Below, in pieces: positions 8,410-64,000 of a stretch of 64,000 nucleotides of DNA (position 1 is its first letter; the number at the start of each line of letters is the position of its first letter). The stretch comes from Pelagomonas calceolata (Eukaryota; Sar; Pelagophyceae; Pelagomonadales; Pelagomonadaceae). The DNA is taken from NCBI GenBank assembly GCA_918797485.1, contig CAKKNE010000005.1, positions 3,224,001 through 3,288,000 of the forward strand, written 5' to 3'. Under the pieces are notes generated by a model. It was given only the letters and a program-made list of their open reading frames with translations, did no database searches and was not told the origin of the DNA. Position numbers and translations under genes: made by a program.

Positions 8410-9707
8410 ATGACCGACGACGACGGCGACGACGACACGATGGAGGGCCGCCTGGCCCACATCTTGGAGAGTGATGCGATGGACACCGTAGATTTGTGGC
8501 TGACCATCGTCGCTTGTCTAGCGGCCATCGAGACGCTGTACGTCTGCGCGCTGGCAACATACAGGTATTCGAGGCGCATCTACCACCTGCCACTGCAGCG
8601 GTGGACGATCCGCGTTTTGTTGGTCGGGCCGGTCTATTCGGTACTGATGTGGGTGGCGCTGTGGTACCCGTCCCTGGATTTCTATCTGGCCGTGCCGCTG
8701 GGTTTTTATGAGTGTTACGCGTTTTTCGGCTTCTATGCGATGCTCGCGTGTTTTGCGGATGGCGAGGACAGATTGGCAACAGCATTAGGTTCCCTGAACC
8801 CGGGCCCGCCGACGGCCTACCTCTACCACCCTTTTGGTTTTAATTGGTGTTCTTGTAGATGCGACAACTACTCTCCCTTGTTTTGGGGCAACATACATTA
8901 TGCCGCTCTACCCCTCAAGTTCGGGAGCAGCCGCGAGTTATTAAGGTTCTTAAAGCGGGGCGTGGCCCAGGCCATGATCGTCAAGCCCTGCTCGTTACTA
9001 CTCATGCTGACGCTGGAATATCTAGGATATGAAGAATTGTGCAACGCGACGCGCTTGTTGAGCGTCGTCAGCTTCTGGTGCGTCGCGAATAGCATCACGC
9101 AGTTGTACCATGCCGTGTTGCCGCGGATCCGGGGCTTGGGGGGCGAACGACTTGTTGTTCTATTACTGGTCATGGTGTCGGTGCTCGCGATCCAGGACGT
9201 CGTCATCTCCATCTTCCTCATCCAGGAGGAGGCGATCACGGCGCCGACGGACGCGCTGCCGACGCGGCTGGTGGTCATACTGACGATTCTCGAGTTTACG
9301 GCCTTCTCGACGATTTTTTATCGGCTCCTCCCGCCGGAGAAGTTCCGGACCTTTGCAAGACGTAGTGGCGCGTCGCCCGAGCAGTCGCCGTCGCACCAGA
9401 GCATGTCCCTCATGAAATTCGTGGGCGTCGTCCTGGACCCGTCGACGACCGTGTGGAAATCAAAAAGTGAGTTACGTCAACCTGAAGCCATCGAGCAGAT
9501 GCAGTTACGGGGACGACGTCGCGGCGATGGCTTGGGGCGCCCGAAATTTGATTTCCACACAGGTCGACGATGTTCCGCATCAACCGGGGACGCTTCGTCT
9601 CCGCCTACGAGAGCGCCGCCTCGGACACGTTCGACGACCTGGCCCACCTCGGCGTGGCCGAGGCGAAGCAGGACGAGAGCAGCGCGCTCGTGCCCGAGAA
9701 GTGGTAA
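8410..9707 (+). CDS. TMEM184 / DUF300 (OST-alpha-like) membrane protein, one introner
   Basis: Exons 8410-9440 and 9563-9707 join in frame to 391 residues. Seven or so hydrophobic helices fill the first 330 residues (for example LWLTIVACLAAIETLYVCAL, LLVGPVYSVLMWVALWY, LVVLLLVMVSVLAIQDVVIS). The block FYECYAFFGFYAMLACF and the later IVKPCSLLLMLTLEYLGY are typical of TMEM184/organic-solute-transporter-alpha proteins, implicated in transport or trafficking. The cytosolic tail after the intron is MFRINRGRFVSAYESAASD and ends PEKW. Without splicing the frame runs into low-complexity sequence. The splice junction rejoins DPSTMFRINR exactly across a duplicated GTCGACGA target. Function in this organism is inferred from family only. 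Confidence 0.88.
9441..9562 (+). mobile_element. Introner element (intron of TMEM184-like gene)
   Basis: 122-bp intron. The target duplication GTCGACGA flanks it (9441-9448 and 9563-9570). The element's ends are inverted repeats: CCGTGTGGAAATCAAA on the left and, read inward from the right, CTGTGTGGAAATCAAA (15 of 16 match). An internal stem AAGCCATCG / CGATGGCTT lies between. The 5' GT is the first two bases of the left target copy; the 3' AG is the end of the right terminal repeat. Splicing restores the uninserted reading frame exactly. Confidence 0.88.
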
Positions 9708-15785: not shown

Positions 15786-18700
15786 TTAGAACCCCGCGTT
15801 CCGCGCCCGCCCGCGCAGCGCGAGCAGCACGACGATGGCCGCCGAGTAGAGGAACATGTAGAAGAGCGACGGCGTGATCACGAGGGCCTTGCCGAAGACG
15901 CCCGCGGTGCACCGGTCCATCAGCGACGGCTTGGCCTTAGCTTTGGTCACGCTCTTGTGGAAGAACATGGCTGCCGACGGCACGGCCGTCAGCGAGAGGA
16001 AGACGAAGCTCATGACGACGCCGAGCCAGCGCTCGATCTCGTCGAAAGGTTTTTTCGCCGTGCCGATTCTGACTAATCCAACGACGATCGACGACGACAG
16101 CATGACCATCATGGTCAGGACCCACAATTTGGCGGTCGTGATTGCATTGATGGAGTCGAAGGACGCCCACCTGCTCGCATCCTTGGCCGCGAACAGAATC
16201 TTCCAGCTGTCCTGGGTGCCCTGGAAGATGGCTAATGTATGGAGCGGCGCCGTCACGAAGAACATCTGCTGAGCCCGCAATAAACCGAGTTTGTCGGGCG
16301 CCTGGTTGTTCTCGAGGGGCGCCCACGCCGCGATGTGCCCATATATGTAGTTCATGTGCACCTCGACCCAGAGCCCGCCGATCGTCAACGTCACCGCGTC
16401 GTACGTCAAAGCCGACGGGTCCGGCGCCATCGTCATGACGCAGGGGATCGCGAGCCAGAAGTAGGCCGTCTGGGACGAGAAGAAGTACGTGATGTTCTCG
16501 AACATGATGAGGTTGGCGCCGATGCGCGGATTGTTGAACGACGCGACGCTCATGAGGACCATATATATACCGTAACACACGAAGATCGGGTCGCTGATCA
16601 GACCGACCTGTGTGGAAATCAGTGAATCGGGTGCATTCAGATAATTCTTCACTAAGTCCTTTCTCGGCGAGAACGCGGCCGTGCTGACTGAATCGAGCAG
16701 TGGGAGACCACAAGGCCACGCCATCGAGCCGATTGCGTCGATGGCGTGGATGTCATGATTGAGTGGCGGACGCGCCGCGACAATTTGATTTATGCACTGA
16801 GACAGGCAGTCGGGCCCAGGCGGCACCACTGATCGTCCTTGTCGACACCCAGCGTCGCCCACATTTTTGATGAGTACTTCGTGCGGTGGCACTTATCTAA
16901 CCGCGTGGCTTGGAAGTAGATGACCGTGGCCATGATGGGCGCGACGACGAAAAACAAGACCAGCCACGGGTAGAGGTAGCGATGCAGGGGGAACCAGAAC
17001 GACGTCCAGGAGAGCTGCACCGCGCCCTTCGACCAGCGGAACACGGCGGCCACGTAGTCCGCCGTGCCCTTCCTCGCGCCTAATACTAATCTCTTGAACA
17101 GGTAGACGCCCTTCCGGCCGGCGACGATGGCCTCGTGCGACGACGCCGTGTCCTCGATCATCGTTTCTTCGTTAAATTTGTGCGCCAATGGCGTCGTGGC
17201 ATCCAACAATGGGTAGTTCCAGACGGCGTTCGTGCCGCAGCTCGTGATCGCGCCGACGCCCGTCCGCACGGTGTTGGCCATTCTAAATAAATACTCGTTC
17301 CTCATGTCAAAAAAGTCCTCGCGGATCGACAGACCCGTGAACGTCTGCGGGAGCTGCACGAACGCGACCTTGGGGTTGATCTCGAGCTCAGCTGACCACG
17401 GGTTGTTCGGATTCGTATATCTATAAAACTGGGGCACAATCGAATCCCAGAAGCCCTCGAGCGCCATGTGCCGACAGTCAAAAATCGCAAATAGTAAATG
17501 ACCGACCTGCTTCGCGTCGGCCGCGTCCCGCGAGTAGTCCCGCCGCTTCCTTACTCTCCTCATCGTCCGCGAGTAGTGGTGCAGGTACCCATTAACCACC
17601 GCGACGGCGTGGTTCATGCCTCCCGACTTCCCGCGGCACTCGCGGAGCGGCTCGACGACGTCGATCGGCAGCACGGCCTCGAAGTCCCGTTTTTTGGCTT
17701 CATGGATCGACGCCTTGCCCCTTTCTATAATGCGCGAGTCCCGCTTCTCTTCACTAAGACAGCAGAGCGTCTCCATACATCCGCTCGACCCTCTCCAGTG
17801 AAAGGCGGCGTCGGGCATGGCCGCGAGCAGTTCCGGCGTGCACTCCTTCAATTTAACATGTTTGACGCCGTCGATGGACGCGAAGCCCACGACGCGCGCG
17901 TGGCACCGCCGCGCTTCCGGGTACGTCAGCATTCTTTGAGATGTCTTGCAGATTAATGCACTGGAAGACGTCTCATCTTTCAAGCGCACGAACGTGTCCA
18001 CCCTGACACCCCGCACCTCCCTTACTTTAAATCCCGAGGCCCTCTTGATGTCCTCGGGGTTGGCCCGCGCCGAATAGCACATGACTACGGTCCTGAACAA
18101 GTCTCCCCGTTCCCCGGCGTCCGAGTAATAATGGACCTCGGCCGTGCGGAACTGCGTGAAGTCGAACCGCTTCGGCCACTTCGTCCGACCCTGCTCGTTA
18201 TACAACTCGTACCACGCGTCCCAGACCCTCCTACTGATAGCGGCGTCGTCCATGGGCGCGACGCCCGGCGAGAAGGGGTGCAGGCCCTTCTTCCTGGCCG
18301 TCTTCCAGTTCTTCGCCCAGGTTCTTAAACACCGCTCCGCGTCCTCGTTGCCCGCGAGGTCGCACATGCCGACCACTTTCACCTGCGGGTCGCTGTACCA
18401 GAAGCAGTGGTGGCCCAGCGCATTTAATAAATCGAAGCAGTAGAAGGCCAGCTCCAATTGCTGCGCGTCCTCGCGGGAAACGCCGTAGTCGCCGATCAGA
18501 CTCCTGAGCGAATCGTCCAGCAGCACCCCTGACTCTAATTCCTTATCTAAGGTGTCTACCGACGCATCCATGTCCTTCATCTTCTCGGCCATCTTCGCGA
18601 GGAAGCGCAAATCACCATGATCGACCACATTGGCAAACGCCGCCCAGAGAGCAAAGGCCCCAACCCGATGGCCCTCGTCCTGGAAGATGTCGATCATCTC

Positions 18701-34865: not shown

Positions 34866-36852
34866 TCAAATCACCCCTAACGCCCTCAACCGCGGGCACA
34901 GCTTGCGGTGGCCCTTCTTCCAGTGCGAGGCCTGGCACTTGCGCGAGCAGTAGGCGACGCGGTGGCAGCCCGTGCAAGCCTTGACGGGGACTTGTTTGGT
35001 CGCGCGCGCGCCGCAGCACGCGCACGCGTGCTCGCCGTCGCAGACGTCGACGAGGACCACGGCGTCGTCCGGCGTCGACGACAACGTGGCGACGGCGTCG
35101 TCCTCGCCCTTCGCGAGGGACACGGCCGTCACCGTGCGCGTCTCCGAAAGAACGAACCGCGCCTGGACGAGCGAGACCTCGCCCAGACCCTTTGGCCCAT
35201 TCTTCGCTTCCGTCACCAAGCCGCGCATGGCGTGCAAGCAGGGTAACGCCTCCTGCGACGACGGCGTCTGCTGGCCCTTGTCGAATTCGATCGTAAACCG
35301 GCCCTCCTTCACTTGCGTCTTCACAAACAACCAGCCGCGCACGCTTAAAGCCAACTGGACCTCCTGGCCCAGCCACGAATCTGGTGGAGGCGTCTCACAC
35401 ACACTCGCGTAGTCGGCGCCGACGGCCGCGACCGCGGCCACGGCCGCGCCCCGTAACGCGGACGCCCAGCCTCGTAAGACGCGCCCGTGGCGGTCGCCGC
35501 GCGCCGCGAGGACGCCGTCCTTCACCGGTATCGTACTATGCAACCAGGCATCCACGGAATGGCCGAAGATCGGATCCGTCAGGGGTTCATACCCTAAATC
35601 ATCTTTGCCGGGAATTTTGTTAAGCAACTCCGAAGATGTAGAAGCGGTGTCGTCGAAGAAGCGACCGATGGCCGTCAAGGCCCGTAGGAACCCGCGCAGC
35701 GTGGTCTGCAGCCCCATCCCGAAGCCGGCCCACTCCTTGATATCGTCTGGATCGTCGTCCTCGAGCGCCAAGACTTGTTGTAAAGCTGGATTTAACACTT
35801 GTAGAGCCGAGGCGCGCCTCGCCCCATTGAGCTTGCGGATGCCTTCTCGTAATGCGTTGGCCAAACAAAGCGCCAGCGTCCCGTATTTCGGCAGGCCGGC
35901 GTGCCGCGCGTAGGCGACGTAACTCACCAACTCGTGGTCCTCGACCCGACCCTGGAGCAGGGGCTGAAATAAGAACGAGGGCGCCGGGCCGCGCGGCTCG
36001 ACGAAGACCTCGACGGCGTCCGCGTCGCCGGGCTCGACGCGCTGCCACGCCGCTATTAACTCATCTTTCCGATCTTCCCGTCTAGACAGGGCGAATAAAA
36101 CTTCGCAGCCGACGCGCTTGATGCCCTCGGTTAACTGTAAGGGGCGCATGCCCGGCTCCGCTACTACGAGAGACGCGCACGCGAGGGGCCCGTCCTGCGC
36201 GTGGGATCGACGCCGTCGACGCGATCCGCTATCGATGGCGTGGCGCTCGACGCCGTCGATGCGACCCCGAAACCATTGATGCCGCGTTGAAGGCACCCAA
36301 GACACACGGTGCGCGCACGGCCCAGGCCGCGTCCCATGCACCCGCTTCGCCCGCGGCCGCCTCTCTAATGGATTCCCAGCACGCATCCACTGCCTTTTCG
36401 CAGACCGGGCGGTTCGTCGGGCCCGTCGCGTCTATCTGATTCGAGACGAAGTACCGCGCGAGGGCCAGCCTCAAGTGCGTGCGCGACGCGAGGTCCTCCC
36501 GCAGCCGCGCGGAACACGTCGCGTCGAGCTTCTTGGCCACACGCGCGTGGGCGTACAACTGCGCCGCGTCGACGGACGGCCACGGGTCTTTCAGGTGTAG
36601 TATAGCTGCGGGGACCGCTTCAGCATCTTTCAGGTTTGAGGGCAGCTGCTCGCCCGCGAATAACGCGCCCGTCGGGCCCGGCGACGCGTGGCGCATGAGG
36701 CACCTTCTCTCGGTTGGCGTCAGCCATGTGGCGTCGCCGGGGATGGGGTTCTTGAGCTTCGCATCGCGCTTGCGCAGCGCGGCGTCGTACTTGTCGGGTC
36801 CGAGGCGCGTGGCGCCCTCTTTCGCCCAGTCGACGCCGGCGATTGTCGGCTC

Positions 36853-41453: not shown

Positions 41454-42698
41454 TTAGACACGTCGCTTCTCGCGCCGCTTCTGCCGCCGCGACTTCTTCG
41501 TCTCCGCGCAGAAGAGCGACTCGCTCGCGGCCGCGGCCCTCAGTACGTCATCGACGTTCGGGAGCGCCTCCACGAGCCTCGCGAGCCAGCCCGCGAGGTC
41601 AGCCCTCGAGTCGCCGAGCTGGCGCGAGTACGACTCCGCGTCGGGATGCTCGCTCACCATCTCGACGAGCCGTCGCAACAAAAACAGCTTGGAAACGTCG
41701 TCACAGCGACCAAACAAAACGCAGCACAGATCTAGGTGGAAGAGGACCGCGTTGTACTGGACCTCGCCGTCGCCGTCGGTGAAGGGCGCGTCGCCGGCGT
41801 CTTCCGGCACGCCGACAGCGAACGCGAACATACGCGGGGAGCTGGTGGGCGGCCCGGCGTGGACGTCGTTGCCGCCCGCGCTGAGGAGCGTGCCGGGCGC
41901 GCAGGTCAACGCGAGGCGCCGCGCCACCGGCTGGTAGAGCTTGCCGAAGCACCGGAGCGCGTCGTCAATAGTCCGCCAGAACTTGAAACGTCCCTCCAGT
42001 TGCCGCCTGCCCTCCTCCACAAGCAGTCGACGGAGCGCCGCCGGCACGTCGAGGCCGCCCTCCTCCCAGAGCGCCACCAGCGCGGCAGCGCTGTCCACGG
42101 CCGGCCCGTCCGGGGCGTAGACGACGGTGGACGGACAGTCGCGCGACATGTAGCAGCACAGCTGCCGGTTGGGGACCATGGCGTCTATATGCCTAATTTG
42201 GCCGCTCGTCGGGCCGAACGCCAGCACGAGCATGAAATTGTCCAGCTTCTCGACGTCCCGACACCTCAGCATGTGTCTTCGAATCCTCTCGACCTGTGTG
42301 GAAATTAAATTTCAGGGGCCCCACGCCATCGAGGCGATGTTGCCTCCATAAATGCGTCTGCTCGATGGCGTAGAGGTTTCCACACAGCTCCCCACCGTCA
42401 GACCGCCCCCAAAATTGCGAAGTAGCCGCGATACTACGCTCTCCTCGTCGTCTGTGATCTCCACGCGATAGATCGCGTGCTCGCCGCCGCCCTGCAGCTC
42501 GCCTACGGAGCCGTCGTGATTTTCTTGAAGAATGGCAAGCGACTGCCGCGGCTGCTCCTCGAGCACGAACGTCGCGAACGCCTCCATCAGCGTCGCCGTC
42601 GCTTCCTCGCGCTCGCTCGCCGGTTCGATGCATTCGACTCCCATTGCTTCCATCTCTCGTTTGATATGGGCCTCGTCGGCGCCATGCAGTGCTGCCAT
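41454..42698 (-). CDS. Unknown conserved-looking soluble protein, one introner
   Basis: Exons 42698-42396 and 42293-41454 join in phase to 380 residues (GGGLT joined to VERIRRHMLRC). No domain is recognised. Features seen: an acidic helical N-terminus (MEAMGVECIEPASEREEATA), a middle with FGPTSGQIRHIDAMVPNRQL, a leucine-rich helical part (LFLLRRLVEMVSEHPDAES) and a basic C-terminus (KKSRRQKRREKRR) suggesting nuclear or nucleolar location. Without splicing the first exon would end inside the introner. It lies head-to-tail behind the DoxX-like gene with a 172-bp gap that lacks the boundary element. Convergent with ClpP at 26 bp. Confidence 0.65.
42294..42395 (-). mobile_element. Introner element in the unknown gene
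   Basis: 102-bp intron on the reverse strand. Ends are inverted repeats, CTGTGTGGAAACC on the left and, read inward, CTGTGTGGAAATTAAA on the right. The last 38 bases are nearly identical to those of the element at 9441-9562 (both contain TGGGGC, GAAATTT, ATTTCCACACAG). Internal CGCCATCGAG / CTCGATGGCG pair. Flanks GTGGGGAG and GTCGAGAG are a decayed 8-bp duplication. GT donor from the left flank, AG from the terminal repeat; splicing keeps frame. Confidence 0.85.
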
Positions 42699-58185: not shown

Positions 58186-58529
58186 TGCCGCAAGTTAACT
58201 AACAGTCTACTATAAACTCTCGCCGCCTATCCTATCCTATGACCTACGCAACCGCAGGAGCCTAGCCCGGGGCGGGTACTCCTCCGAGCGTTTCTGCACC
58301 GCGGGGCCTAGAACTCTCAGGCTCGCGGTGCCGGTAGATCACCGTAGATGGGCCCGTCACGGAACCGCTGCGTTGCGCGTCGACAGCGTCTCGGTTGTAC
58401 CACCTCGACGCCATCGAGGCGAAGCATCATGGAGGACACCGAGTCGGCAGCGCGACGCGCGCCCGAGCAACAGCATACCCCCTTCCCCTGAGCACTGCAC
58501 TAACAACGAATAAAAGCAAATAACACAAA
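58186..58529. other. 344-bp convergent intergenic region with possible introner relic
   Basis: Between the CDC45 and SNARE stops. CCTCGACGCCATCGAGG at about 58391-58407 resembles the internal stem of the introners, but no terminal repeats are seen. A CCTATCCTATCC-like repeat lies near 58227-58241. No gene is supported. Confidence 0.35.
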
Positions 58530-59884: not shown

Positions 59885-60781
59885 TTACCCCCGCCCCTGC
59901 TTCACGTCGCTCCAGGTGACGCGCTTCCGCGCGGGCGACTTGGCCGGAGGCGTCGCCGCTTTTCGGGGAGGCGACTTCGGCGGCGGCGGCGACTCCTCCT
60001 TCTCCAAAGCTTCGAGCGCCGCGACGGCGTCCCTATACCTTTTGAGAATGCGAGAGGGAATCACGAGCAGCAGCAGCGCCATGACCGCCAAATAAACATA
60101 AGCGTAGGGTTTTGACTCCTCATCGACGTCAGGCACTTCCAACTCTTCTTCGGTCACATAACCTTTTTGTAACAAATGGTCCAGGTTCGCCTGGGCCTTC
60201 TTATGTTTCGACGCACCAGCAGCTTTGTAGAGGCGCGCGGCCTCGACGTACGACTTCTCAACACCTAACCCCTTGCGGTACATGTTCCCGAGGTTGAACT
60301 GCGCCGACGCGTGGCCCTGGTTCGCCGCCTCCCGGTAATTCCGCGCGGCTTCCTGGGGATCCGACGTCGCCCCCTGGCCGTCGAACATGGTGCCCAAGTT
60401 GTACTGGGCGTCCGCTCTCCCTTCCGCCGCGGCCAGCCGCAGCTCCAGCTCCTCATCGTCCTCGTCCGCCAATTTCAAAAAGCGCAGCGGCCGTCGCGGC
60501 GGTTCCGGGATGTCCGTCGGGTCGAAGGTGCCGACTTTCACCTTCTTCTTGCCCTTGAACCGGTCGGGCGGCGGCGCGGGACAGGAAGTGGCCGCGCAGT
60601 TTTTATTGTTTGCATTGTCGACGGGCGCCGGGCACGATCCCGCGGGGCCACCGGGCGGCGGCGCGGGGCAGCGCTTCCCGGCGCCCGCGGCCGTCGTGAC
60701 GTAAGCAAGGAGAAGGAGGCGTCGGCGCATCGCGCCCGTGGCCGTCGCGACGTAGCCAAGGAGGAGGAGGCGTCGGCGCAT
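59885..60781 (-). CDS. Sel1-repeat membrane protein with duplicated signal peptide
   Basis: 298 residues from ATG 60781, or 281 from the in-frame ATG at 60730. Each start opens its own signal peptide: MRRRLLLLGYVATATGA and MRRRLLLLAYVTTAAGA. A Cys/Pro-rich stretch repeats CPAPPP. Two clear Sel1-like repeats (about 117-190) read ADAQYNLGTMFDGQG and HASAQFNLGNMYRKGLG, EAARLYKAAG. A membrane helix (about 225-245, YVYLAVMALLLLVIP) and a basic, SP-rich cytosolic tail follow. Topology resembles HRD3/SEL1L-type ER proteins in miniature, but with too few repeats to claim that. Divergent from the lumen-type gene. Confidence 0.78.
   Translation of the reverse strand: MRRRLLLLGYVATATGAMRRRLLLLAYVTTAAGAGKRCPAPPPGGPAGSCPAPVDNANNKNCAATSCPAPPPDRFKGKKKVKVGTFDPTDIPEPPRRPLRFLKLADEDDEELELRLAAAEGRADAQYNLGTMFDGQGATSDPQEAARNYREAANQGHASAQFNLGNMYRKGLGVEKSYVEAARLYKAAGASKHKKAQANLDHLLQKGYVTEEELEVPDVDEESKPYAYVYLAVMALLLLVIPSRILKRYRDAVAALEALEKEESPPPPKSPPRKAATPPAKSPARKRVTWSDVKQGRG
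60680..60781 (-). repeat. Tandem 51-bp duplication of the signal-peptide codons
   Basis: Reverse-strand units 60781-60731 and 60730-60680 each encode ATG plus a full signal-peptide-like segment, differing at few bases. The duplication keeps frame and creates two alternative starts. Confidence 0.85.
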
Positions 60782-60969
60782 CGCTATCGTCGTCTATCGT
60801 GGCGCTGCATTGTCCTTGCCATTCGGCTGGGGGCAGCCGGCGCGGGGGCGTAAGCTGTACGGCTCTGCTTTGTGCGCGTGCGGGGTCGCACGTGGGGCTG
60901 CGCGTGAGGCGCCTCTGGGGCTATTTGGGCCAGCGCTCCGGGCTCTTTTTTTTCAGTCCTGCTGTCCAT

Positions 60970-60989
60970 CTAGTGTGTCGAAACACTAG
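60970..60989. promoter_or_regulatory. CTAG palindrome, symmetrical copy
   Basis: CTAGTGTGTCGAAACACTAG: perfect 7-bp arms CTAGTGT / ACACTAG. It is 188 bp from the Sel1 start at 60781. A second copy for the opposite gene follows at 61066. Confidence 0.65.
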
Positions 60990-61065
60990 CCTACACACAG
61001 CGCACAAGGTCGGAATTTGCAGGGGTCGATACTCGACGAGAGCCCCTCGTCGCGAGGAAATGTTC

Positions 61066-61087
61066 GCTAGCGGTGTGAGACACTAGC
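61066..61087. promoter_or_regulatory. CTAG nested palindrome upstream of lumen-type gene
   Basis: Reads GCTAGCGGTGTGAGACACTA then GC, 158 bp before the start at 61246. The rest of this 464-bp divergent gap shows nothing else. Confidence 0.7.
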
Positions 61088-61245
61088 ACAAGCACTCTGA
61101 GATCTTAACAATTAGCAAGCTGAGCTAATATTGCTCGATACACGTCGTTGTGGCGCGTTTGCGAAGGAGCCATACATCCTCTCACTTGCCCGCGACTCGC
61201 TGTTCGCTGCAGCTCATCCTACAGCCACCACAGACTGCAGATCAG

Positions 61246-61729
61246 ATGGCTGCTCTCCGGCTGTGCGCGCTGCTGCTCGTGTCTGCAGCCCAGGCCCTGC
61301 ATATCACCAGGCAACAGGTGCTGCGCAGCGTAGTGCTCGCGCCGATTGCGCTCCCAGCTTTCGCCGACGACGACTTGAAAGGCCTGCTCGGCGCGGTGGT
61401 CGAGAACGAGGAGGCCAAGCAAGCCAAGAAGGAGGCCGACGCCGCGCTCGAGGAGAAGCTGAGTAAAATGTCGGCGGGCGAGCGCATCCGCTACGAGCGC
61501 GCGCCAGTGTGAAACAACCAGTGAGTCCGAGCGGTGAGAGACCCGTTCCACCACGCCATCGAGCAGACGTCGTCGCAGGCGCGCCGAGGCCGCGAAGACG
61601 AACAAGGCCGCGGCGGATGAAGCGATGCGCAAGATCAAGACGCTCGTCGGCGACCAGGACGCCGCCGACGCGAAGCCCTCGGAGGAGGGGATCCGGAACC
61701 CGGCGAAGTGGGATAAGGCGAGTGAGTAA
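61246..61729 (+). CDS. Small putative thylakoid-lumen protein, one introner
   Basis: Exons 61246-61496 and 61579-61729 join to 133 residues. The N-terminus is three-part: signal peptide MAALRLCALLLVSAAQALHI, a short transit stretch (TRQQVLRS) and a second hydrophobic segment VVLAPIALPAFA before DDDLKG, a typical thylakoid processing site. The mature part is Lys/Glu/Ala-rich and helical (ENEEAKQAKKEADAALEEKL, MSAGERIRYERAEAAKTNKA), ending NPAKWDKASE. I do not recognise the family. Reading the paralogous exon at 61920 as the empty site fixes the junction as YERA-EAAK and needs a GC donor; a GT donor at 61507 would shift frame. Confidence 0.7.
61497..61578 (+). mobile_element. Truncated introner in the lumen-type gene
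   Basis: 82 bp net insertion compared with the empty site in the downstream tandem copy. It begins CAGTGTGAAAC after a GC-rich flank, contains CCACGCCATCGAGCAGACG as in the elements at 9441 and 42294, and ends CGTCGCAG. The right half, with its stem partner, is missing. The flanks (GCGCGCGC / GCGCGCCG) are an imperfect duplication. Confidence 0.72.
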
Positions 61730-61895
61730 AATTCTTAGGAGCCAGCGTTCTGCTGCCGAGACCGGCGCTCGAAGGCGTCTAGTCGCCACAGAGTCTTGTG
61801 TTTAGATAATTTTTTACGATGGGGAATGGTTCGTCACGGACGCCCGGATAGCATAACCGCGCCAGACCGAGGTCTACTAGGCTCAACGTTAGAAT

Positions 61896-62257
61896 GCGAT
61901 CGAGGCAAAGTTAACCAAGATGTCGGCGGGCGAGCGCATCCGCTACGAGCGCGCCGAGGCGGCGAAGACGAACAAGGCCGCAGCGGACGAGGCCATGCGC
62001 AAGATCAAGACGCTCGTCGGCGACAGTGCATAAATCAAATTGTCGCGACGCGTCTCCGCCACAGCTCAATCATGGCCTCCACGCCATCGACGCGACGCCG
62101 GCTCGATGGCGTGGTGTTGTGGCTCTCTACGGCCGCGTTCGAGAAACCGACTCACTGATTGATCTGCGCACAGGTCGGCGACCAGGACGCCGCGGACGCG
62201 AAGCCCTCGGAGGAGGGGATCCGGAACCCGGCGAAGTGGGACAAGGCGAGTGAGTAA
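61896..62257 (+). pseudogene. Partial second copy of the lumen-type gene (terminal exon only)
   Basis: An in-frame stop (61890-61892) precedes AIEAKLTKMSAGERIRYERA; the copy then continues colinear with exon 2 to the stop at 62255, once the introner at 62016-62173 is removed. There is no start, signal peptide or upstream exon. It could be a dead fragment or an alternative terminal exon; no 3' splice site at its left edge is obvious. Confidence 0.65.
62016..62173 (+). mobile_element. Intact-looking introner with empty-site paralogue nearby
   Basis: A 158-bp insertion (with one target copy) relative to 61641-61660. Target GTCGGCGA is duplicated at 62016 and 62174. The element begins CAGTGCATAAATCAAATTGT and ends TTGATCTGCGCACAG; internal perfect 12-bp stem CCACGCCATCGA / TCGATGGCGTGG. 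Removing GT (first bases of the left target copy) through AG (element end) restores the empty-site sequence exactly. It closely resembles the element at 16608-16807. Confidence 0.9.
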
Positions 62258-62262
62258 AATTC

Positions 62263-63276
62263 TTAGGAGCCAGCGTTCTGCTGCCGCGACCGGCGCTCGG
62301 CGGCGGCGAGGATCGCGTCCCGGTTTCCGCGGGCCGTGCGTTGTGGTGAAGGTGGCGTCGGCGTCGGCACGAGGGGCGCGGCCGCCGGCGCGGAGGCGCC
62401 CAGCACGCGCCCCTGTCCACCAGGTGGCTCGGGCGGAAACGCGGCCTGCCGCGCCTCGGCGAGCATCGTCCCGAAGCCCCGCTGCACCGCCGACGGATTT
62501 TCGGGGTCCGCCCAGTCGCCGCCCGAGACCGTAAAGGCCGACGCCCCCAGGCTCCGCTCGGCGCTCACGAAGGTCGAATCAGAAGTCACGCAGGCGAGAG
62601 CCGAGGCCGCCTCGCAGCGGCTCACGAGCGCGGGCTTGGGTTTGAGCACCTCCAGGTAGCCCTTCGCGTAGCCGTAGCCGTAGGCGCAGCCCAATGATAA
62701 TGAGAGCTTCGGCGCGCCCAAGATCAGCAACAATAACAAAAGGGCCGCGGGGTACCTATCTCTAGGCACCTGGATGGGAATGCAGGGCAGCGGGCGCGTG
62801 CCGTCGGGCGAGGAGAGGCACTCTATGGTAATAAGGCAGAGTAATAAGGGCCAGCCGCCGCTCGTCGCGGCGAGCGCCGGCTCCGCGGAGCCGATCATCA
62901 TCGTAAAGAGGTAGCACAGCGCGCAGAACGAGAGGTTGATGACAATGGAAGCTGTAAGGGTGGCTATCATCATTCGCATAGATCCCCAGCTCTGCTCGAG
63001 GCGCGGGCCGACGCCGTCGCCCAAAACAAAAAGGGCCACGACCGTCCCTAGCAACGAATTGCCGACGCAGGGCGACAGGATCAGGCGCCACAGTTCAAAC
63101 CGTCTTACAATGCGAAACGGCACGGTCTCGAGGCCGCGCTGGAGGTCCAAAATCCACGAGAAGCCGTAGCACGCGGCGAGGCCGACGCACAGTCCTCTAC
63201 AGACGACGGGCGTCCGCGCGGCCCAGGCCTCGTAGGCGCGGTTGAGGGGGTTGGCGTCCTCCGGGGGGGCCTGCAT
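62263..63276 (-). CDS. Rhomboid-like (UBAC2/derlin-type) membrane protein
   Basis: 337 residues from ATG 63276; codons further upstream lack an ATG. Six or so helices: RGLCVGLAACYGFSWILDL, LSPCVGNSLLGTVVALFVLG, MMIATLTASIVINLSFCALC, GGWPLLLCLITIECL and YPAALLLLLLILGAPKLSLS. FELWRLILSPCV and the GxxxYGYAKGYLE region recall UBAC2/TMEM115-type rhomboid pseudoproteases. I see no GxSG catalytic serine or matching histidine, so it is probably inactive and may act in ER quality control. A Pro/Arg-rich cytosolic tail ends RRSRQQNAGS; this end is the part duplicated after 61730. Confidence 0.75.
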   Translation of the reverse strand: MQAPPEDANPLNRAYEAWAARTPVVCRGLCVGLAACYGFSWILDLQRGLETVPFRIVRRFELWRLILSPCVGNSLLGTVVALFVLGDGVGPRLEQSWGSMRMMIATLTASIVINLSFCALCYLFTMMIGSAEPALAATSGGWPLLLCLITIECLSSPDGTRPLPCIPIQVPRDRYPAALLLLLLILGAPKLSLSLGCAYGYGYAKGYLEVLKPKPALVSRCEAASALACVTSDSTFVSAERSLGASAFTVSGGDWADPENPSAVQRGFGTMLAEARQAAFPPEPPGGQGRVLGASAPAAAPLVPTPTPPSPQRTARGNRDAILAAAERRSRQQNAGS

Positions 63277-63452
63277 CGATGCGTCGCGTCGATGGCGTAC
63301 AGGCTGGCGCAGAGAGGGTGAGCACAGAAGGTATTTTAGTGCGGTTCGCGAAGCGCTTCGCCGAGATGGCAGCAGCACCGTTGTAATGTGTACCTAATTT
63401 AAGTTATTCGCCCTCCACAACACCAAAGCGCTTTGAAGCGCGCGTTTCCGGA

Positions 63453-63476
63453 GCTAGCGTCCTGTAACACACTAGG
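63453..63476. promoter_or_regulatory. CTAG nested palindrome in divergent promoter
   Basis: Reads GCTAGCG, TCC, TGTAACACACTAGG. It is 176 bp from the rhomboid-like start and 159 bp before the start at 63636. The rest of the 359-bp gap shows nothing recognised. Confidence 0.7.
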
Positions 63477-63635
63477 AAATCGTCCGCAGCCAGCCGTTTC
63501 AGTCCGCGCGCGCGCTAAAATTCTGTTAGCCGACCACAGGCTAGTCGCTGTAACCTAACTTCTCGCTGCGCCCGCGAAACCGCGAGTCGTGCGCCCCAGC
63601 AGCCACCAAAACCAAAATCACTGATCAGAGCCAAA

Positions 63636-64000
63636 ATGCACAAAACACTTCTCGCGACCCTCCTCATTGCCGCCAGCGCTTTCCGTCCGCCGCTGCGCCT
63701 CGCACCGCTACGAACCCTCTCAACACTGCGCGCCGCGCCCGACGCGGACAAGTCCGTCGACGCGGCCATCGACCAGCGCGCCGCCGAACTGGCCTCATCG
63801 AAACAGATCGCGCGCGCGACGCTGCCGGGGAATAGGAGGGCGTTGGCATTGTGGCGCGTCGGCTGGCTCAGCTGGTGGTGCCAGGTCATCCTCACGACGA
63901 TCAGCGCCGTCGTGCTCACGTTCGCCAAAGTCTCGGCACCATCGACAGCCACCCAACCGGAGGCGGCGTTGGCGTCGGGGTTCCTCTTCGCGAGCGCCGG
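63636..64000 (+). CDS. DUF3611-like plastid membrane protein, 5' part
   Basis: 121 codons before the window ends. The presequence is a textbook stramenopile plastid signal: MHKTLLATLLIAASAFRPPL with the ASAF motif, then a basic Ser/Thr-containing transit stretch. The mature part begins DKSVDAAIDQRAAELASSKQ and has ALWRVGWLSWWCQVILTTIS and AVVLTFAKVSA, resembling the first helix of cyanobacterial/plastid DUF3611 proteins (RxGWxxFWxQ). Function of that family is unknown. Start chosen because it alone gives the targeting signal. Confidence 0.7.
   Translation, partial: MHKTLLATLLIAASAFRPPLRLAPLRTLSTLRAAPDADKSVDAAIDQRAAELASSKQIARATLPGNRRALALWRVGWLSWWCQVILTTISAVVLTFAKVSAPSTATQPEAALASGFLFASA

Follow-up and report, generated by a model that had tools for sequence, protein, structure and literature searches.

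Reciprocally filled and empty introner sites in a tandem duplication from Pelagomonas calceolata

In the work of Huff, Zilberman and Roy from 2016, the introners of Aureococcus anophagefferens and Micromonas pusilla are short non-autonomous DNA transposons that insert with a duplicated target, and reportedly one splice site comes from the element while the other comes from the duplicated target. Here we describe two introner-type insertions, containing the elements E1 and E2, in a small gene of the pelagophyte Pelagomonas calceolata and in a partial tandem copy of that gene, each copy being filled at one site and empty at the other. The locus lies in a 64,000-nucleotide stretch of DNA (C5:3224001-3288000; the window, whose own positions are used throughout) with a GC content of 63.6%, from a genome whose 8 contigs total 32,445,274 bases. 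The P. calceolata RCC100 assembly is described as 32.4 Mb with 63.6% GC, in six nuclear and two organelle contigs, and the intron lengths of this species peak at about 210 bp, as in Aureococcus and Micromonas introners (PMC9481584). The GC 5′ splice sites of introners range from 0 to 50% across families (Gozashti et al. 2022; PMC9860276).

The two copies carry reciprocal insertions. Copy 1 holds an 82-bp insert (61497-61578) at site 1, where copy 2 is empty, and copy 2 holds a 158-bp insert (62016-62173) at site 2, where copy 1 is empty; 67 coding bases separate the two sites. We aligned the copies after excision of both inserts, and a global MAFFT alignment of the whole copies put the reciprocal gaps in the wrong places. 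In the local alignment of the excised copies, 61444-61786 and 61896-62316 are identical at 241 of 263 columns, of which 261 are gap-free. The excision point at site 1 slides over 7 positions at equal score. The insertions claimed in the original prediction are borne out base for base by this alignment, and the junctions it gave, 61496/61579 and 62015/62174, are correct.

Copy 1 is the intact host gene (61246-61729, plus strand), with exons at 61246-61496 and 61579-61729 and a predicted 133-residue protein that begins with a predicted targeting-like N-terminal stretch. Exact removal of 61497-61578 restores the reading frame, and the resulting translation is 100% identical over 133 residues to P0001, a protein from the mmetsp source. 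Copy 2 (61896-62310, plus strand) is a partial tandem duplicate that takes in the 3′ part of the host gene, whose stop here lies at 62255-62257, as well as the 3′ end of a convergent neighbouring open reading frame (ORF). Its homology to copy 1 begins at about 61896, it lacks the host gene's own start codon and targeting-like N-terminal part, and its internal ATG lies at 61920. Copy 2 is thus a 5′-truncated fragment and no second gene. A 113-bp filler (61783-61895) separates the copies.

Each insert consists of one copy of an 8-bp target duplication followed by an element. E2 (62024-62173, plus strand) is 150 bp long, with an internal palindrome visible as a self-match on the other strand and with ends, CAGTGCATAAAT and CTGTGCGCAGAT, that match at 8 of 12 positions as terminal inverted repeats (TIRs). 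The site-2 duplication GTCGGCGA (62016-62023, plus strand) recurs exactly at 62174-62181. E1 (61505-61578, plus strand) is 74 bp long, ends in CGCAG at its 3′ end, and has a degenerate 3′ TIR. At site 1, the 5′ copy of the duplication, GCGCGCGC (61497-61504, plus strand), agrees with the 3′ copy, GCGCGCCG (61579-61586), at only 6 of 8 bases. The 8-bp duplication claimed in the original prediction is upheld at site 2; the predicted GC donor and the imperfect duplication at site 1 escaped it, as did the common family and opposite orientation of the two elements and the truncation of copy 2. E1 and E2 have 22 of 24 core positions in common in opposite orientation, and the score of this alignment is reached by none of 2000 dinucleotide shuffles. 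By their shared core, E1 and E2 belong to a single family of short introners of the DNA-transposon type and are placed in opposite orientation. A search of E2 for phage matches returned none.

The family extends well beyond this locus. A query with both copies and both elements finds at least 59 genome matches, its own place included (40 of 653 candidates scored), and a query holding E1 finds 16, that is, 15 besides its own place. The 12-base E2 end occurs 95 times in the genome, whereas a reversed control pattern does not occur. Stretches were fetched for all 95 occurrences, and 92 distinct 5′ ends were kept once repeats and short flanks had been dropped. The 8 bp ahead of the element start with GT in 54 of these, with GC in 32 and otherwise in 6, giving a GY start in 86 of 92 against a GY background of 17% in the flanks. 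A matching 3′ duplication with a TIR-like end is present in 68 of the 92 at up to two mismatches (24 exact), whereas 20 control draws average 5.6 and never exceed 10. Where an exact 8-mer recurs once, 50-260 bases on and with no end rule imposed, AG stands ahead of the second copy in 23 of 23 cases. Four of the 92 family ends share with site 1 an 8-mer that starts with GCGCG. Purines occupy position 7 of the 8-mer in 70 of 92 and C occupies position 8 in 40 of 92, a weak mirror of the GY start. The genic position of family copies was judged by an open-frame check alone: the joined flanks are open for at least 33 codons on each side in 66 of 68 cases, against 44 of 68 antisense. With the element retained 40 of 68 stay open in this GC-rich genome, and the check does not discriminate retention. 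With the family membership, the dispersed copies and the exact filled and empty boundaries, the description of the insertions as introner-type is upheld, and the element ends and splice sites are, as had been proposed, legible from the empty partner copy. The original assignment of the DNA to a pelagophyte is also supported.

Within the window, a strict-TIR structural scan finds no element, missing E2 too (seven of 8 shuffles yielded 0 elements and the other yielded 2), and a looser scan, run without a shuffle control, finds E2 and three more places; both scans miss E1. An introner-like element of 114 bp (9449-9562, within 9441-9570) is flanked by the exact duplication GTCGACGA, and its excision restores an open frame containing VVLDPSTMFRINRGRFVSAYESAASDTFDD. 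Family ends also occur at 16608-16799 and 42294-42387, where the flanking 8-mers differ in 2 of 8 bases; the element at 16608-16799 is 86% identical to E2 over 104 bp. Short fragments resembling the E2 core are found at 36207-36243, 58403-58425 and 63281-63304, places where the looser scan finds no whole elements.

We predict that site 1 is spliced as GC-AG and site 2 as GT-AG, because the family 8-mers begin with GT or GC and AG precedes the second copy. Predicted intron 1 (61497-61578, plus strand, 82 nt) and predicted intron 2 (62016-62173, plus strand, 158 nt) each comprise one duplication copy plus the element. The duplicated target would supply the 5′ splice site (GC at site 1, GT at site 2) while the element end would supply CAG as the 3′ splice site, so that each insert could be excised exactly. 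Since about one third of the family has GC donors, the GC donor at site 1 is in character; in Aureococcus, 39.6% of introns are reported as GC-AG (PMC3033335). P0001 corresponds to the copy-1 excision product, although its own strain may be either filled or empty at site 1. That both inserts are spliced we infer. Two alternative donors within E1 were rejected by inspection: GTGTG at 61507 shifts the frame, and GTGAGT at 61521 retains an in-frame stop.

To place the insertions in time we turn to related proteins, which three protein searches returned as 80 clusters that were sorted by sequence patterns. A complete 5′ end and both junctions without an insert characterize 52 of the 80 (among them P0049, with an odd C terminus). 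Eight clusters with a complete 5′ end read into E1 (ERAPV, ERAPVWINQ), and eight with a complete 5′ end read into E2 (VGDSA). Three start within E1 and then cross an empty site 2, while a single fragment, P0075, starts within E1 and reads into E2, both of its sites being filled. The 5′ end is missing and both junctions are intact in two clusters, three are unscored at site 1 (P0071, which has diverged in that stretch, and P0078 and P0079, which start after it), and one, P0062, has a frameshift. P0072 and P0080 are identical to ORFs of the window but come from separate short contigs, of 389 bp and up to 1476 bp, P0072 matching the copy 2 ORF on the 389-bp contig. P0076 and the window share RDPFHHAIEQ in the E1 reading, which marks the element as the same. 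Pattern matches to host-gene relatives in the viral_contigs and genome_contigs sets yielded none that was confirmed.

These relatives bear directly on the age of the insertions. The original prediction held that both insertions post-date the duplication or were precisely lost from one copy; this part is not supported, and a third course is favoured, because 5′-complete relatives already carry the same insertion at either site. Neither insertion is likely to have been born in this duplicate, because 5′-intact genes carry either one, an argument that stands even if some clusters derive from RNA. To judge from these translated relatives, both insertions are most probably older than the duplication and differ in presence among lineages. 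A quick tree (about 85 residues, 69 clusters) gives 7 changes across the 8 rows filled at site 1 and 8 across the 8 rows filled at site 2; it uses a short stretch, without a shuffled-label comparison, and is given little weight. Two relatives are of note in their own right. The first part of P0071 is a diverged form of the protein and its last 26 residues are nearly identical to the host gene end, a possible chimera near site 2. P0073, on a 377,195-bp contig of another assembly, is truncated and apparently frameshifted, starts at the same ATG as copy 2 and has both junctions unfilled.

The divergence of the copies suggests an origin for the tandem. Counted from their common ATG, 7 of 7 codon differences are synonymous, an outcome with a chance of 3e-5 to 1e-4 if the differences were neutral. 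It would follow that the copies diverged while both were coding, as alleles, and that copy 2 lost its 5′ end late. Two differently filled alleles have probably been joined in tandem, to judge from this pattern, and unequal exchange between them is the simplest reading; meiosis is inferred for P. calceolata, which has 18 of 23 meiosis genes (PMC9481584). We propose that two members of one short non-autonomous DNA-transposon introner family entered two sites of a small nuclear gene before the tandem duplication, and they are now found in relatives singly and once together. In this reading, one functional allele was filled at site 1 and a second at site 2, and unequal exchange or subsequent conversion between them would have produced the present pair, an intact gene that carries intron 1 and a truncated 3′ remnant that carries intron 2; the exchange itself we infer. 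Overall, an allele-joined tandem with two older introner insertions and exact excision is the best explanation, and we consider it reasonably likely.

Several points weigh against this explanation. Just left of the shared ATG, only 16 of 24 nt agree and 3 of 8 codons change the amino acid, which is ill-fitting for a simple join of close alleles and hints at an older duplication that was later homogenized; the 113-bp filler between the copies likewise speaks against a simple join, the site-1 duplication is imperfect and the E1 3′ TIR degenerate. The relatives are translations without context, so that some may be RNA and 'unfilled' may mean 'spliced', and ORFs among them that retain an intron could stem from RNA that was only partly spliced. 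The poorly matching stretch and the filler would also be explained if the duplication were older and another allele had since converted most of it. Because a spliced transcript resembles an empty site, the claim of four filled and empty combinations depends on DNA versus RNA origin, and we take the relatives without either insert to represent DNA. A wider proposal, which we hold tentatively and as possible rather than likely, is that both insertions segregate in natural Pelagomonas populations in all four filled and empty combinations and on many allele backgrounds, that two alleles are fused here in tandem, and that a GYNNNNRC target preference supplies a ready splice donor on either strand.

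The joining of two differently filled alleles has to be weighed against four alternatives. The one that survives best starts from a both-filled gene that was duplicated, each copy then exactly losing one introner, for example by conversion with cDNA or an unfilled allele. Fragment P0075 attests the both-filled state and many relatives lack both inserts (52 of 80, some perhaps spliced RNA), but two exact losses in opposite copies would be required and the all-synonymous divergence already implies separate functional histories, so this route is improbable. Somewhat less probable again is that the gene part was duplicated first and one introner then entered each copy at a different site. A numerous introner family and the pattern within this single genome agree with such an order; the 5′-complete relatives, however, have the same element identically placed and oriented at either site, and both insertions would have had to be repeated independently or transferred from this locus.

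An assembly artefact, with two haplotypes placed end to end, would account for a haplotype-like difference of a few percent between the copies. Yet the RCC100 genome is estimated to be homozygous and its Hi-C data are without chimeras (PMC9481584), the filler stands between the copies, and other sequence sets hold the copy 2 ORF (P0072, on the 389-bp contig) and a truncated copy (P0073, on the 377-kb contig); we regard an artefact as very unlikely. Just as implausible are unspliced transposons that end copy 1 early at 61512 and break both copies, since, even though read-through into E1 meets a stop after ERAPV and copy 2 has no 5′ end, the mmetsp protein P0001 equals the exact excision product, the family obeys a GY...AG rule and every codon difference between the copies past the shared ATG is synonymous.

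The duplicated unit, which runs to 61782 in copy 1 and 62310 in copy 2, includes the 3′ end of the convergent neighbouring ORF (62263-63378, minus strand, 371 residues), whose last codons lie within it and which shows a weak DUF1751 match (20.9 bits against a cut-off of 22). The host gene product matches no Pfam family at its cut-off. A source for the filler was sought without success, and the filler has no other match in the genome; it resembles the sequence on the right of copy 2 only weakly and with gaps, at a score that 10 of 300 shuffles also reach. A transfer RNA search of the window found none, and an Rfam search of 60000-64000 found nothing at the gathering threshold. To the left of the host gene, a 51-bp direct tandem repeat, 90% identical, occupies 60681-60782 inside a minus-strand ORF that presumably encodes a Sel1-repeat protein.

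The origin and spread of introns is an old question, and one locus here shows two introns each in its filled and its empty state. The same insertions appear to occur in different combinations in public sequence sets; if so, intron gain would be trackable as a polymorphism in a free-living alga, through its frequencies, recombination and splicing from GC versus GT donors. Introners with target duplications and co-opted donors, and GC donors in introners, are already known (PMC9860276). A literature search combining 'Pelagomonas' and 'introner' returned only PMC9481584, on introner-like intron lengths, and among the introner and polymorphism matches listed, judged by titles alone, none has pelagophyte introner polymorphism as its subject. 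We regard the locus as a good example of an established kind, which may extend to the level of populations. In organization it resembles the introners reported for Aureococcus and Micromonas: a short non-autonomous DNA transposon, a target duplication, and two splice sites divided between element and target. Natural populations of Daphnia have likewise been examined for recently gained introns (PMC4202315). The duplication is 8 bp here, in contrast to 4 bp in Symbiodinium-type introners (PMC9860276). The family 4 introner of Aureococcus sp. likewise has an 8-bp duplication and was likewise read from a filled and empty comparison, made there between isolates; its element supplies both splice sites and adds 12 bp to the transcript, whereas exact excision is predicted for both insertions in Pelagomonas (PMC9860276).
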